Position numbers and translations under genes: made by a program. The notes under the pieces were generated by a model. That model worked only from the letters and a program-made list of their open reading frames with translations, was not told the origin of the DNA and ran no database searches. Positions 20,629-27,500 of a stretch of 64,000 nt of DNA are shown one piece after another. This DNA is from an uncultured Dehalococcoidia bacterium. Its GTDB lineage: Bacteria > Chloroflexota > Dehalococcoidia > Lucifugimonadales > UBA1123. How positions within the stretch are numbered: the stretch's first letter is position 1; the number at the start of each line of letters is the position of its first letter. The stretch lies in NCBI GenBank assembly GCA_958296105.1, contig OY282441.1:469800-533799 (forward strand), in the 5' to 3' direction.

Positions 20629-23580
20629 TTGTGCTACCTGTATACAATGTATACGGTGTGCGGTGTGCTGCCTATATATAATGTATACGGGTGTACATTG
20701 TATACAGGCAACTGCGCGGTAAAGGATACATGGCAGGGTCGTTCTCGAACGACCGCTACCGATTTGGGGGGTCGATCTGCCACCGCCGCGAACGGGCTGC
20801 GCTCACGACATCGGGCAATGTATACGGGTATACATTGTATACGAGGGGCCGCGCAGTAAAGGATACATGGCAGGGTCGTTCTCGAACGACCGCTACCGAT
20901 TTGGGGGGTCGATCTGCCGCCGCCGCGAACGGGCTGCGCTCACGCGAACGGGCATCCCAGACCGAAGGGCATCGTACACGACATCGGGCTGCGCTCACGA
21001 TAACGAGCATCCCAGACGCGAACGGGCAATGTATACGGGTATACCTTGTATACAGAGGCCGCGCAGTCGAGGATACAGGGCAGGGTCGTTCTCGAACGAC
21101 CGCTACCGATTTGGGGGTGGGTCCGCCACCGCCGCGAGAAGGGGTTGGATCTGCCGTTGCCGTGCAGGGGGTCGTTCTCGAACGACCGCTACCGATTTGG
21201 GGTGGGTCTGCCGCCGCCGCGAAGGGGTTGGATCTGCCGTTGCCGTGCAGGGGGTCGTTCTCGAACGACCGCTACCGATTTGGGGGGTCGATCTGCCACC
21301 GCCGCGAACGGGCTGCGCTCTCGACATCGGGCAATGTATACGGGTATACCTTGTATACAAGGGGCCGCGCAGTCGAGGATACAGGGCAGGGTCGTTCTCG
21401 AACGACCGCTACCGATTTGGGGGGTCGATCTGCCACCGCCGCCAAGGGGCTGCACTCTCGACATCGGGCAATGTATACGGGTATACCTTGTATACGGGGG
21501 CCGCGCAGTCGAGGATACAGGGCAGGGTCGTTCTCGAACGACCGCTACCGATTTAGGGGGTGGGTCTGCCGCCGCCGCGAAGGGGTTGGATCTGCCGTTG
21601 CCGTGCAGGGGGTCGTCCTCGAACGACCGCTACCGATTTGGGGGGTCGATCTGCCGCCGCCGCGAAGGGGCTGCGCTCACGCGAACGGGCATCCCAGACC
21701 GAAGGGCATCTCGTACACGACATCGGGCTGGCTCACGACAGCGGGCTGCCTCTCGACAGCGGACAGTACAGACCGAACGGGCAATGTATACGGGTATACA
21801 TTGTATACAGGGGCCGCGCAGTCGAGGATACATGGCAGGGTCGTTCTCGAACGACCGCTACGGATTGGGGGGTGGGATCTGCCACCGCCGCGATCTGGCT
21901 GCGCTCTCGACATCGGGCAATGTATACGGGTATACATTGTATACAGGGTCCGTGCAGTCGAGGATACATGGCAGGGTCGTTCTCGAACGACCGCTACGGA
22001 TTGGGGGGTCGATCTGCCGCCGCCGCGAAGGGGCTGCGCACACGCGAACGGGCATCCCAGACGCGAAGGGTCGTCGCACACGCGAACGGGCAATGTATAC
22101 GGGTATACATTGTATACAAGGGGCCGCGCAGTCGAGGATACATGGCAGGGTCGTTCTCGAACGACCGCTACCGGATTTGGGGGGTCGATCTGCCGTTGCC
22201 GTGCAGGGGGTCGTTCTCGAACGACCGCTACCGATTTGGGGGGTCGATCTGCCGCCGCCGCGAACGGGCTGCGCACACGACATCGGGCATCCCAGACCGA
22301 AGGGCATCGTACACGACATCGGGCTGGCTCTCGACATCGGGCTGCGCTCTCGACATCGGGCATCCTCACGACATCGGGCTGGCTCTCGACATCGGGCTGC
22401 GCTCTCGACATCGGGCTGGCTCTCGACATCGGGCTGCGCTCTCGACATCGGGCTGCGCTCTCGACATCGGGCTGCGCTCTCGACATCGGGCTGCGCTCTC
22501 GACATCGGACAGTACAGACCGAACGGGCAATGTATACGGGTATACCTTGTATACAGGGGCCGCGCAGTCTAGGATACATGGCAGGGGCGTCCTCAAACGA
22601 CCGCTACGGATTTGGGGGGGGGCGATCTGCCGCCGCCGCGAAGGGGCTGCGCTCACGCGAACGGGCATCCCAGACCGAAGGACATCGTACTCGACATCGG
22701 GCATCCTCTCGACATCGGGCTGGCTCTCGACATCGGGCATCCTCACGACATCGGGCATCGTACTCGACATCGGGCATCGTACTCGACATCGGGCATCCTC
22801 TCGACATTGGGCTGCGCTCTCGACATCGGGCATCCTCACGACATTGGGCTGCGCTCTCGACATCGGGCTGCGCTCTCGACATCGGGCAATGTATACGGGT
22901 ATATCTTGTATACAGGGGCCGCGCAGTCGAGGATACATGGCAGGGGCGTCCTCGAACGACCGCTACGGATTTGGGGGGTCGATCTGCCGCCGCCGCGAAG
23001 GGGCTGCGCACACGCGAACGGGCATCCCAGACCGAAGGGCATCGTACACGACATCGGGCTGGCTCTCGACAGCGGGCATCCTCTCGACATCGGCATCCTC
23101 TCGACATCGGGCTGCGCTCTTGACATCGGACAGTACAGACCGAACGGGCAATGTATACGGGTATGCCTTGTATACAGGACAGGGGCCGCGCAGTCGAGGA
23201 TACATGGCAGGGGCGTCCTCGAACGAACGACCGATTTGGGGGGTCGATCTGCCGCCGCCGCGAAGGGGCATCCTCTCGACATCGGGCATCCTCTCGACAG
23301 CGGCATCCTCTCGACAGCGGGCATCCCAGACCGAAGGGCATCGTACACGACAGCGGGCTGCGCTCTCGACAGCGGGCTGCGCTCTCGACAGCGGGCTGCG
23401 CTCTCGACAGCGGGCTGCGCTCTCGACAGCGGGATGGCGCTGTGCGGGGGGGGGTTGGCGAACGTCCGCTGCCTATTGGGGGGTGGGCTGCCGTCGCCGT
23501 GTAGGGGTGCCGCCGTGCAGAGGGGCGTTCTCGAACGACTGCTACGGATATCGGGGGGTGACGTGCAGGGGTTGGCACCC
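20629..23580. repeat. mosaic of nested direct and inverted repeats, about 3 kb
   Basis: Almost the whole interval is built from three interleaved modules. Module A is a GTATAC hairpin (aatgtatacgggtatacatt, two 9-bp arms around GG, sometimes with one arm changed to CCTT), followed by TGTATAC, about ten copies. Module B is about 95 bp starting CCGCGCAGTCGAGGATAC, with GTCGTTC-TC-GAACGAC (7-bp stem) and a GTCGATCTGCCGCCGCCG end, about 16 copies, several shortened or variant. Module C is runs of 18-19 bp units of type GGCTGCGCTCTCGACATCG, up to five in a row at about 22430-22505, changing to CGACAGCG variants after 23250. Long open frames exist on both strands only because the repeats lack stops. 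Confidence 0.93.
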
Positions 23581-24120
23581 AAAATGGCGGGAATATGGGA
23601 TTTTGGGGTTGCGCTAATCGGAACTGACCTTTACAATCTGATTCCCTGTTGGAGGATATTAGCTCGGATCGTATGGGAGTGTGAATTGGTCAATGGGTGC
23701 AGGTGTACGAGCGTGGCTTCCGCCACGCTGTCAAGCCTCTACAGTGCAGGTAAGACCGGCGCAACTGGTCAAACCTGTTGTTTTCCCCTACGCGCCTATG
23801 TCCGTTCCCAAATCTCGTTCACACATCGGACATTCTCTTTCTCCCCTCTCTGCCTCTCTGCTCGCCCCCGACAGATACAGACCCTCGACTCAGTCGAACC
23901 TGTTTTCCGTCAGGGCGCATCAAATACAAAGAGATGAACTCCATCGACGGTCAATCCGTATCTCTTAACAGTCCGTGGTCATCTTTGGGTGGATTCGTCC
24001 GGGTTGGCTTGCTACAGACTGGGACTATCCTAATGTCCCCCACGACTGTTCAACTTCGTAAGTCCTGGCATACGATGAAATGTCAACACAACCTAAGATT
24101 GGCTGTGGGAGAGTTTGCGC
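23581..24120. other. unique leader region before the 20-bp array and the giant gene
   Basis: Some 540 bases with lower GC than the surroundings and no convincing gene. An 8-bp perfect hairpin AGCGTGGC-TTCC-GCCACGCT lies at 23710-23729 without a U-tract. A weak promoter candidate, TTCAAC (24049-24054), 16 bp, TACGAT (24071-24076), sits just before the array. An open frame from 23778 runs through the array and stops at 24531-24533, overlapping the giant gene's ATG. Its sequence before the array (FSPTRLCPFPNLVHTSDILF) has no recognisable domain. Confidence 0.45.
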
Positions 24121-24500
24121 GGCGTCCTCTCAATGGACGCGGCGTCCTCTCAATGGACGCGGCGTCCTCTCAATGGACGCGGCGTCCTCTCAATGGACGC
24201 GGCGTCCTCTCAATGGACGCGGCGTCCTCTCAATGGACGCGGCGTCCTCTCAATGGACGCGGCGTCCTCTCAATGGACGCGGCGTCCTCTCAATGGACGC
24301 GGCGTCCTCTCAATGGACGCGGCGTCCTCTCAATGGACGCGGCGTCCTCTCAATGGACGCGGCGTCCTCTCAATGGACGCGGCGTCCTCTCAATGGACGC
24401 GGCGTCCTCTCAATGGACGCGGCGTCCTCTCAATGGACGCGGCGTCCTCTCAATGGACGCGGCGTCCTCTCAATGGACGCGGCGTCCTCTCAATGGACGC
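24121..24500. repeat. 19 perfect tandem copies of a 20-bp hairpin-forming unit (VNTR)
   Basis: The unit ggcgtcctctcaatggacgc is repeated exactly 19 times with no substitution. Inside each unit GCGTCC and GGACGC are inverted repeats around a TCTCAAT loop, so RNA or single-stranded DNA could form a chain of hairpins. The unit is not a multiple of three and has no stop codon in any forward frame. The array ends 29 bp before the ATG of the 7139-codon gene and would lie in its leader. There are no spacers, so it is not a CRISPR array. Confidence 0.98.
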
Positions 24501-24529
24501 GGCAAAGCTCGCAGTGCTAAAGGCGTGAT

Positions 24530-27500
24530 ATGATCAGCAATGCTGACCGTCTGATGAGATTCGTAGTTCTGGGCGCAGCCGTATTCGCGGTGGCGCTAAT
24601 GGCCGGCTTGCTTTCGCATCCCACGATCGCATCGACCGATGGGTCCGGGGGGTCGGCGACCAGTACGCCGCCTGTTCAGCCGCCGTCCGGCGGCGAGTCC
24701 CAGAACGGCGCTCCGCCGGATCAGTCGCCAGCTGACCCTGACGACGGCGGCGAGTCCACGAGCGACACGCCCACACCCACGCCACCAGACGACGGCGACG
24801 GCGACACGCCTACGCCTTCTCCTACTAACGGCGATCAAAACGCGCCTACGCCTACGCCTGACAACGGCGACACGCCTACGCCTACGCCTACAGACAACGG
24901 CGACGAGTCCACGAGCGACACGCCCACGCCTACTAACGGCGATCAAAACGGCGCAACGCCCACGCCTACGCCTACAGACAACGGCGACACGCCTACGCCT
25001 TCTCCTACTCCTGACAACGGCGATCAAAACGCGCCTACGCCTACGCCTGAGAACAGCGACACGCCCACGCCTACTACTAACGGCGATCAAAACGGCGCAA
25101 CGCCCACGCCTACGCCTACTCCTACGCCAACAGACAACGGCGACGGCGACACGCCTACGCCTTCTCCTACTCCTGACAACGGCGATCAAAACGCGCCTAC
25201 GCCTACGCCTGAGAACAGCGACACGCCTACTCCTACTAACGGCGAACAAAACGGCGCTACGCCCACGCCTACGCCTACTCCTGACAACGGCGACGGCGCA
25301 ACGCCCACGCCTACGCCCACGCCTGACAATGGCGACGCGCCTACGCCCTCGCCTACTCCTGACAATGGCGACACGCCTACGCCCACTCCTGACAATGGCG
25401 ACACGCCTACGCCCACGCCGTCTGACAACGCCACCAGCACGCCGTCTGCTCAGACGCCAGACGACGGGGGCGAGAACGGCGGGACGCCTACGCCTACGCC
25501 TGCTGACGACGGGGGCGAGAACGGCGGGACGCCTACGCCCACGCCTACGCCCACGCCTGACAATGGCGACACGCCTACGCCCACGCCAACAGACAACGCT
25601 ACCAGCACGCCGTCTACTCAGCCGTCAGATACTGACGACGGGAACGCATCCAGCACGGCGCCGCTCTGGTTCGACGGGACGGTGGGGACGCAAACCTATA
25701 CGGTGGGGCAAGTGGTCAACGTGACGCTTCCCGCCGCATCGGGCGGGGACGCGCCTCTGAGCTACCGACTGGAACCGGATCTGCCAGATGGTCTGTCGTT
25801 CGACTCCGACGCTCTGACTATATCCGGCTCTCCTAGCGAGGGCAGCAGCGCGACGGTCTACGAACTGATCGCAACCGACGCAGGGGGGGATTCTACGTCT
25901 CTGCAATTCATCGTAGAAGTCTACGAGGCTGTGAGCCAACAGGCGGCGGCCACGGTCAGCGGCGTGAGTATCACATCCACAGCAACCGCTCAGCAAGACT
26001 CGATGGCGTACTACGGGGCGAGCGATAATATCACCGTCGAAGTGACATTCAGCGGAACGGTTGCGGTCACAGGATCGCCTCAGCTCGCTATCACTGTCGG
26101 CTCGCGCACTCGCCAAGCGGCACACCTCACCACCTCCGGCTCCACAATCACCTTCCGATACGCGGTCAGCAGCGCGGACCGGGATGCGGACGGCATCAGC
26201 ATCGCCGCCAACGCGCTTGCGCTGAACGGCGGATCCATACAGTCGGGCGGCGTGGACGTCGCCCTGGGTCTCGGCAGCCACGCTCTGGAGGCGCAGACGA
26301 GCCACAAGGTGAACGGCGGGGGGGCGTCCTTCGACGGGGTGGCATCGCCTGCCTATACCTTCGAGATAGGGACCAGAGGAGAGGTCACGCTGCCGGAAGC
26401 CGACGGCGCGGCAGAGAATTGCTGGATGGCTCGGTCGGGTGATCAAACCCTCCGCGAACGCTGCCCCTATGAGATCGCCTCCACGCCGAGCCTGCCGAGC
26501 GGCTTGATATTCAATCGAGTATTCCACAGTATCGAAGGGACGCCGTCCTCCGCGATGGCTACCACTACCTACACTCTGATCGCCAACAGCGCGTCGGGAA
26601 GCGACACGCTGACGTTCACGATTCGGGTAGTGCAGCCGGAGGCGACGGTCAGCGGCGTGAGCGTCATATCCACGCCGACCGCGCGGCGAGGCGCGAACGT
26701 GTACTACGGGGCGAACGAGAACATAGACGTGGACGTGACCTTCAGCGGAACGGTTGCGGTCACAGGGTCACCTCAGCTCGCTATCACTGTCGGCTCGCGC
26801 ACTCGCCAAGCGGCTTACCGCTCTATCTCCGGCTCCACGGTCAGCTTCCGATACGCGGTCAGCAGCGCGGACCGGGATGCGGACGGCATCAGCATCGCCG
26901 CCAACGCGCTTACGCTGAACGGCGGATCCATACAGTCGGGCGGGGTCGATGTCGCTCTGGGTCTCGGCAGCCACGCTCTGGGGGCGCAGACGAGCCACAA
27001 GGTGAACGGCGGGGGGGCATCCTTCGACGGGGTGGCATCGCCTGCCTACACCTTCGTGACAGGGACATCCAAAACGGTTTTTCTGCCGATGGCCGCCGGC
27101 GCGGAAAGGCAATGCACATTCGACAGGTCCACGGATCCCCCTACCAGCACCTGTACGGCCCCCTACGAGCTAGCCTCCACGCCGAGCCTGCCGAGCGGCA
27201 TTTCCTTCATCCCTGTCACCCGCTCGGTATGGGGGGTGGCGTCCTCCGAGATGGCTACCACTACCTACACTCTGATCGCCAGCAGCCCGCAGGGCAGCGA
27301 CACGCTGACGTTCACGATTCGGGTAGAGCATCCGCTGGCGACGGTCACAGGGGTTAGCATAACGTCCAGCCCCGCCAGCAGCGCGTCCGGCTACGCGGCG
27401 GACGAGAATATAGACGTGGACGTCACATTCAGCCTGCCGCTGAGTGTTACGGGAACGCCTCAGCTTGCGCTGGGCATTGGGGCGAACACGCGGCAGGCGG

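Follow-up and report, generated by a model that had tools for sequence, protein, structure and literature searches.

An uncultured Dehalococcoidia bacterium carries a perfect 20-bp tandem array, apparently amplified from a conserved leader, in front of a giant predicted surface-protein gene: a candidate contingency element

Introduction

Most phase-variable repeat tracts on record come from cultured animal pathogens and commensals. REP/BIME elements are a dispersed class of GC-rich palindromic units found between genes. In Haemophilus influenzae, the promoters of hmw1A and hmw2A contain 7-bp repeats in 9-28 copies across isolates, and more copies of these HMW adhesin repeats generally mean less transcript (PMC2424069). 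In Streptococcus gallolyticus, GCAGA repeats of pil1 and pil3 are located within a leader-peptide gene and are followed by a terminator hairpin (PMC3894217). Homopolymeric G/C tracts serve as contingency loci in Campylobacter (PMC8355987) and Neisseria (PMC5320596). Here we describe a locus from an uncultured Dehalococcoidia bacterium which resembles hmw1A and hmw2A in that a tandem array precedes a large, adhesin-like gene for a predicted surface protein.

Results

A perfect tandem array in front of a giant gene

The source genome is a single contig of 3,184,931 bases, of which positions 469800-533799 were analysed as one 64-kb stretch, called the window throughout. The features of the locus, in window coordinates, are as follows.

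24094-24099, forward strand: -10-like hexamer TAAGAT adjoining the conserved block (weak)
24100-24119, forward strand: conserved 5' leader block TGGCTGTGGGAGAGTTTGCG, also present in homologous genes; 5' of the array, with a 2-nt overlap
24118-24503, forward strand: tandem array, 19 copies of CGCGGCGTCCTCTCAATGGA plus CGCGGC (sequence, Tandem Repeats Finder, shuffles)
24498-24529, forward strand: conserved 3' leader part CGCGGCAAAGCTCGCAGTGCTAAAGGCGTGAT, reaching to the start codon (match to leader model R2)
24519-24523, forward strand: AAAGG, a likely Shine-Dalgarno sequence 6 nt ahead of the ATG, assigned from the sequence
24530-45949, forward strand: giant surface-protein gene, 7139 aa (domains; start and end homologous in relatives)

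Nineteen perfect copies of the 20-nt unit run head to tail from 24118 to 24497 on the forward strand, and a partial 6-nt copy, CGCGGC, completes the array up to 24503 for a total of 386 bp. Tandem Repeats Finder reported 19.3 copies with 100% match and no indels, and dinucleotide shuffles of the window yielded 0.01 unit matches at up to 3 mismatches. Near-perfect head-to-tail identity, as expected of a phase-variable VNTR, was observed (19 units, 100%). The genome is a MAG assembly, but it is one contig, and the array is short enough to be spanned by long reads. A preliminary description had reported a perfect array of 19 x 20 bp with GCGTCC/GGACGC inverted repeats, and both points were confirmed, the arms being found in each unit. 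Its coordinates (24121-24500) represent another register of the same array, and its distance of 29 bp to the ATG is correct in that register, corresponding to 26 nt between the partial copy and the ATG at 24530.

With up to 2 mismatches allowed, the 3.18-Mb genome contained no further occurrence of the array unit outside this locus, and the unit had no match in viral contigs (as an exact 26-mer) or in plasmids. We rejected a dispersed repeat or mobile element, the unit being confined to one locus, and also a CRISPR array, the units being contiguous and identical with no unique spacers between them. The form of the unit, an inverted repeat GCGTCC-N7-GGACGC recurring every 20 bp (about two helical turns), would suit an operator array, each palindrome being a binding site for a regulator and each further copy adding one more site. 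However, the genome has no other occurrence of the unit, and the arms are kept only partly in relatives, making an operator array very improbable.

No other perfect array of at least five copies was observed in 260 kb sampled evenly across the rest of the genome, so that the array is the only one of its kind in the window and this sample. The nearest comparable array in the same genome (L114 16757-17145) contains about 20 copies of a 17-bp unit that are 97% identical, and sits between reading frames without an evident hairpin. Within the window, a 2.7-kb field of imperfect tandem repeats (20690-23430) lies upstream of the giant gene and holds palindromes such as GGGTCGTTCTCGAACGACC and ATGTATACGGGTATACAT plus 19-bp CTCTCGACATCGGGCTGCG units. 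A 24-nt palindrome-containing word occurs 14 times in this field and once elsewhere in the genome. Closer to the array, about 100 bp (23969-24067) were 72% like an intergenic stretch near a hisS-like gene in another part of the genome (L024 1501-1607), with possible hairpins in both copies.

The giant gene and its homologues

The gene downstream of the array comprises 7139 codons (21.4 kb). Its product contains an N-terminal signal peptide followed by a long TP-rich stalk and many He_PIG (putative Ig) domains, and ends with a second TP-rich stretch and a transmembrane segment with a basic tail; this giant Ig-domain protein is probably surface-exposed. The start codon at 24530 is backed by homologous N-termini, and the array lies where a VNTR of this class would be expected, in a conserved leader and 26 nt before the ATG of a predicted surface-protein gene. 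Genes for TsaE (tsaE) and a TsaD-domain protein come after the giant gene.

With the first 52 residues as query, eight further genomes from this order of the Dehalococcoidia yielded ten homologous gene starts. Nine of these are in open frames of 6660-9728 codons, while the tenth (G203b) is a shorter tandem paralog. This shorter gene of G203 (L149; 1332 codons) has the same signal peptide and leader and is located directly behind the giant gene. The giant-gene start was absent from all three genomes of the same genus that were examined, and a class-wide sample contained no further true homologs beyond the order, the weak extra matches being short or out of context. As a protein query against genome contigs the low-complexity N-terminus gave no matches, and the protein matches in these contigs came from the first Ig-type domains used as query. 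Remoter proteins with the same domains were observed in MAGs labelled Gammaproteobacteria, Spirochaetia, Binatia and Nitrospirales (L047-L050, L052), and a spread of Ig-domain proteins between phyla is possible. A run of 18 G was noted immediately upstream of the called frame in L052. Judging from the type of MAG, the hosts may be sponges. Genes downstream of the giant gene vary between genomes, and the leader therefore seems to travel with the gene.

A conserved leader split by the array

The leader, aligned among relatives by hand-chosen segments, is conserved in most homologs from the start codon to about 75 nt upstream. It reads TGGCTGTGGGAGAGTCTGCG, followed by a unit-like CGGCGTCCTC...GGACGC and, leading up to the ATG, ...CGCAGTGTTAAAGGCGTG; a TAAAG-type sequence occupies the Shine-Dalgarno position in most homologous leaders. 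Four of eight leaders reach 4/6 matches to a -10-like hexamer (expected 1.3, P about 0.02; weak). The position of this hexamer by the conserved block hints that the C tracts described below may overlap or adjoin the promoter, and that the array may be part of the transcribed leader.

All ten homologous gene starts have an array-free leader, and the relatives possess the unit at most once. A leader model (R2) was built from seven relatives, with the window left out, and the whole 64-kb window was scanned with filters off. The two best matches in the window fall on the edges of the array, one at 24099-24145 (model 3-49, E 1.7e-7; 5' edge) and one at 24478-24532 (model 23-76, E 2.1e-8; 3' edge), with a third, weaker match inside the array. 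These edge matches overlap at model positions 23-49, which is one unit together with its CGCGGC end. Another leader model, with the window included, agreed with this genome-wide; in the genomes searched, each of its strong matches lay at a giant gene or the tandem paralog. Since the array separates the two halves of the leader, which share one unit, it is best read as a 20-nt slice of the leader amplified in tandem.

One relative may preserve the state from which this amplification began. In G230a, CGCGGCCTCCTCAGTATGAACGCGGC is located at -53 (compared with -52 in the window) and is identical at 21/26 positions to the unit with both its ends, a score equalled by 0/1000 shuffles. Two CGCGGC words also occur there, with a spacing of exactly 20 bp, where the window has its array. 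Unit matches in G203b (19/26) and G102 (18/26) were likewise far above shuffles; those in G016 and G199 were borderline, and in four of the ten relatives (G028, G203a, G230b, G200) the match was no better than chance. The G230 sequence is thus a likely starting state before duplication. An origin by microhomology at CGCGGC predicts an array of 19 x 20 + 6 nt, as was found. Taken with the perfect identity, the ten array-free leaders strongly support the recent expansion proposed in the preliminary description. Related loci do differ in repeat state, as VNTRs do, at the level of genera and families; with one genome of the species, what the comparison establishes is the array-free state.

Poly-C tracts before homologous genes

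Of the eleven leaders, six (L029, L030, L031, L033, L034, L036; from genomes G016, G028, G039, G102, G200 and G203) have a C tract of 14-21 nt ahead of the ATG. Five of these tracts start 85-103 nt before the ATG and one, in G039, 200 nt before it. Those in G016, G203a and G200 end just before the conserved block, and several relatives have a tract that stops just short of the TAAGAT-equivalent position. If every overlapping 14-mer counts as its own tract, six or more poly-C tracts in the 250 bp upstream would arise by chance with a probability of about 8e-13, or 7e-7 should intergenic DNA be ten times as rich in tracts. Judged by sequence, the tracts before the homologous giant genes are candidate homopolymer contingency loci. 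Other repeats were also seen in the leaders: in G199, 16 bp of the ribosome-binding segment are duplicated in tandem, and G016 has short direct repeats.

The other poly-C/G tracts in these genomes were located within reading frames or ahead of signal-peptide proteins. Examples in relatives include frames that, by eye only, resemble UDP-sugar dehydrogenase, sugar-transfer and membrane proteins (L124-L142). In the source genome, an in-frame C14 (L104 5988-6001) and C17 (L105 2246-2262) directly follow the lipobox of two lipoproteins, which appear by eye to be of beta-propeller type, and both genes are candidates for on/off phase variation. The idea of a contingency locus, put forward in the preliminary description, gains independent support from the poly-C tracts in the six leaders and in the lipoprotein genes. 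These six leaders are no proof that the 20-bp array acts alike, and its perfect identity also fits a single recent expansion without a role.

Leader RNA structure and reading frames

Another way in which the array might act is as a leader-RNA device, with stacked hairpins that stabilise the transcript, slow ribosomes or polymerase, or mask the ribosome site, the strength of the effect being set by copy number. The predicted folding of the array RNA is far beyond that of shuffles (z -14.4), and G199 and G039, alone among the relatives, have a strong single hairpin at this position. However, the strong fold of the array is expected because any 6-bp inverted repeat is here repeated, and the fold of a single-copy leader is unexceptional (z -1.6, best stem P 0.26). 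Leader folds of the relatives had a mean z of -0.65 (Fisher P 0.056). Across eight leaders, 78% of cells were paired, no more than in partner shuffles; one pair was altered on both sides compared with 0.9 in shuffles, and the covariation score was equalled by 68/500 shuffles. The predicted unpaired probability of AAAGG ranged from 0.03 to 0.21 over 0 to 20 copies, and an Rfam search of the window found no family reaching threshold.

Two specific forms of such a device were rejected: a conserved hairpin RNA, since covariation was absent and most relatives fold no better than their composition predicts, and a masking of the ribosome site by copy number, given that the predicted openness of AAAGG hardly changes. 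The hairpin as a working part, suggested in the preliminary description, was therefore not upheld, one unit folding like shuffles, and we consider a leader-RNA device as a whole improbable. The fold of one unit, the lack of covariation and the nearly constant predicted access to AAAGG together rank an effect of leader length before an effect of structure.

The unit of 20 bp is not a multiple of 3, and by attenuation of the pil1 type a change in copy number would shift a translated upstream frame. All three forward frames are indeed open through the array, ending between -12 and +4 around the start codon. Because they all end within about 13 nt of each other, a frame shift would alter little, and no upstream frame of fixed phase common to the relatives was found, the frame distance not being kept. 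No terminator-like site was observed between 24118 and 24530, and the array hairpins, which lack a T-run, are thus not intrinsic terminators. A terminator or attenuator reading was rejected for the absence of a T-run behind the array, and pil1-type attenuation is extremely improbable.

Discussion

We lean, by a modest preference, towards the array as a recent amplification of a 20-nt leader slice that acts as a copy-variable contingency element tuning the output of the giant gene. The first step, a leader without an array as in the relatives, of which a slice was later amplified, is strongly supported. The first duplication would likely have arisen by slipped-strand pairing at two CGCGGC words 20 bp apart, with later slippage or unequal recombination presumably bringing the array to 19 copies and keeping it uniform. 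Copy number would then differ among cells, altering the length of the leader and in turn the output of the giant gene. By analogy, the array may take the role apparently played by a poly-C tract in six of the homologous leaders. A graded effect, on transcript yield, transcript stability or the distance from promoter to ribosome site, would be more likely than a hairpin that hides the ribosome site.

The main rival is a neutral expansion: a direct repeat liable to slippage, in a part of the leader that tolerates change, would have reached 19 copies and become fixed through chance alone, with no regulatory function. The richness of the source genome in tandem repeats (the L114 array and the 2.7-kb field just upstream) is consistent with this, as are the restriction of the array to this genome and the near independence of predicted folding at the ribosome-binding site from copy number. 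Set against these are the position of the array, inside the conserved leader of a family whose leaders have poly-C tracts far above chance, and its standing as the sole perfect array of at least five copies in the window and the sampled 260 kb. On this evidence we regard a purely neutral origin as rather unlikely.

Placed beside the poly-C leaders, the array also suggests that the leader control region repeatedly evolves fast-mutating expression switches. A broader and more tentative proposal is that the leader is a dedicated mutable site, at which lineages install interchangeable length-variable elements that diversify expression of a 20-29 kb adhesin-like gene. The elements in question would be poly-C (six leaders), the 20-bp array (one) and the duplicated ribosome-binding segment (one).

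In these uncultured Dehalococcoidia, then, the leader of a giant adhesin-like gene has acquired repeat tracts time and again. The apparent pre-duplication state in G230, next to the 20-bp array, offers a rare before-and-after view of the birth of a VNTR. A literature search for phase variation in such symbionts found no paper, and the array provides a concrete population test of whether contingency loci operate in uncultured, possibly host-associated bacteria.

Among known systems, the array unit is GC-rich, palindromic and located between genes like REP/BIME elements, but differs from them in being confined to a single locus, head-to-tail, identical and derived from the local leader. As in pil1/pil3, repeats whose unit is not a multiple of 3 are placed between a promoter, here a putative one, and the first gene of a surface structure; unlike in pil1/pil3, neither a conserved leader peptide nor a terminator was found at the array. 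The difference from hmw1A/hmw2A lies in the 20-bp unit and in the placement of the array within a conserved leader, 26 nt from the ATG; the phylum is also different, no sequence relation is expected, and the array is known here from the sequence of one genome. The homopolymeric G/C-tract loci are matched by the six homologous leaders with 14-21 C before the same gene, whereas the window's own leader has the 20-bp unit instead.
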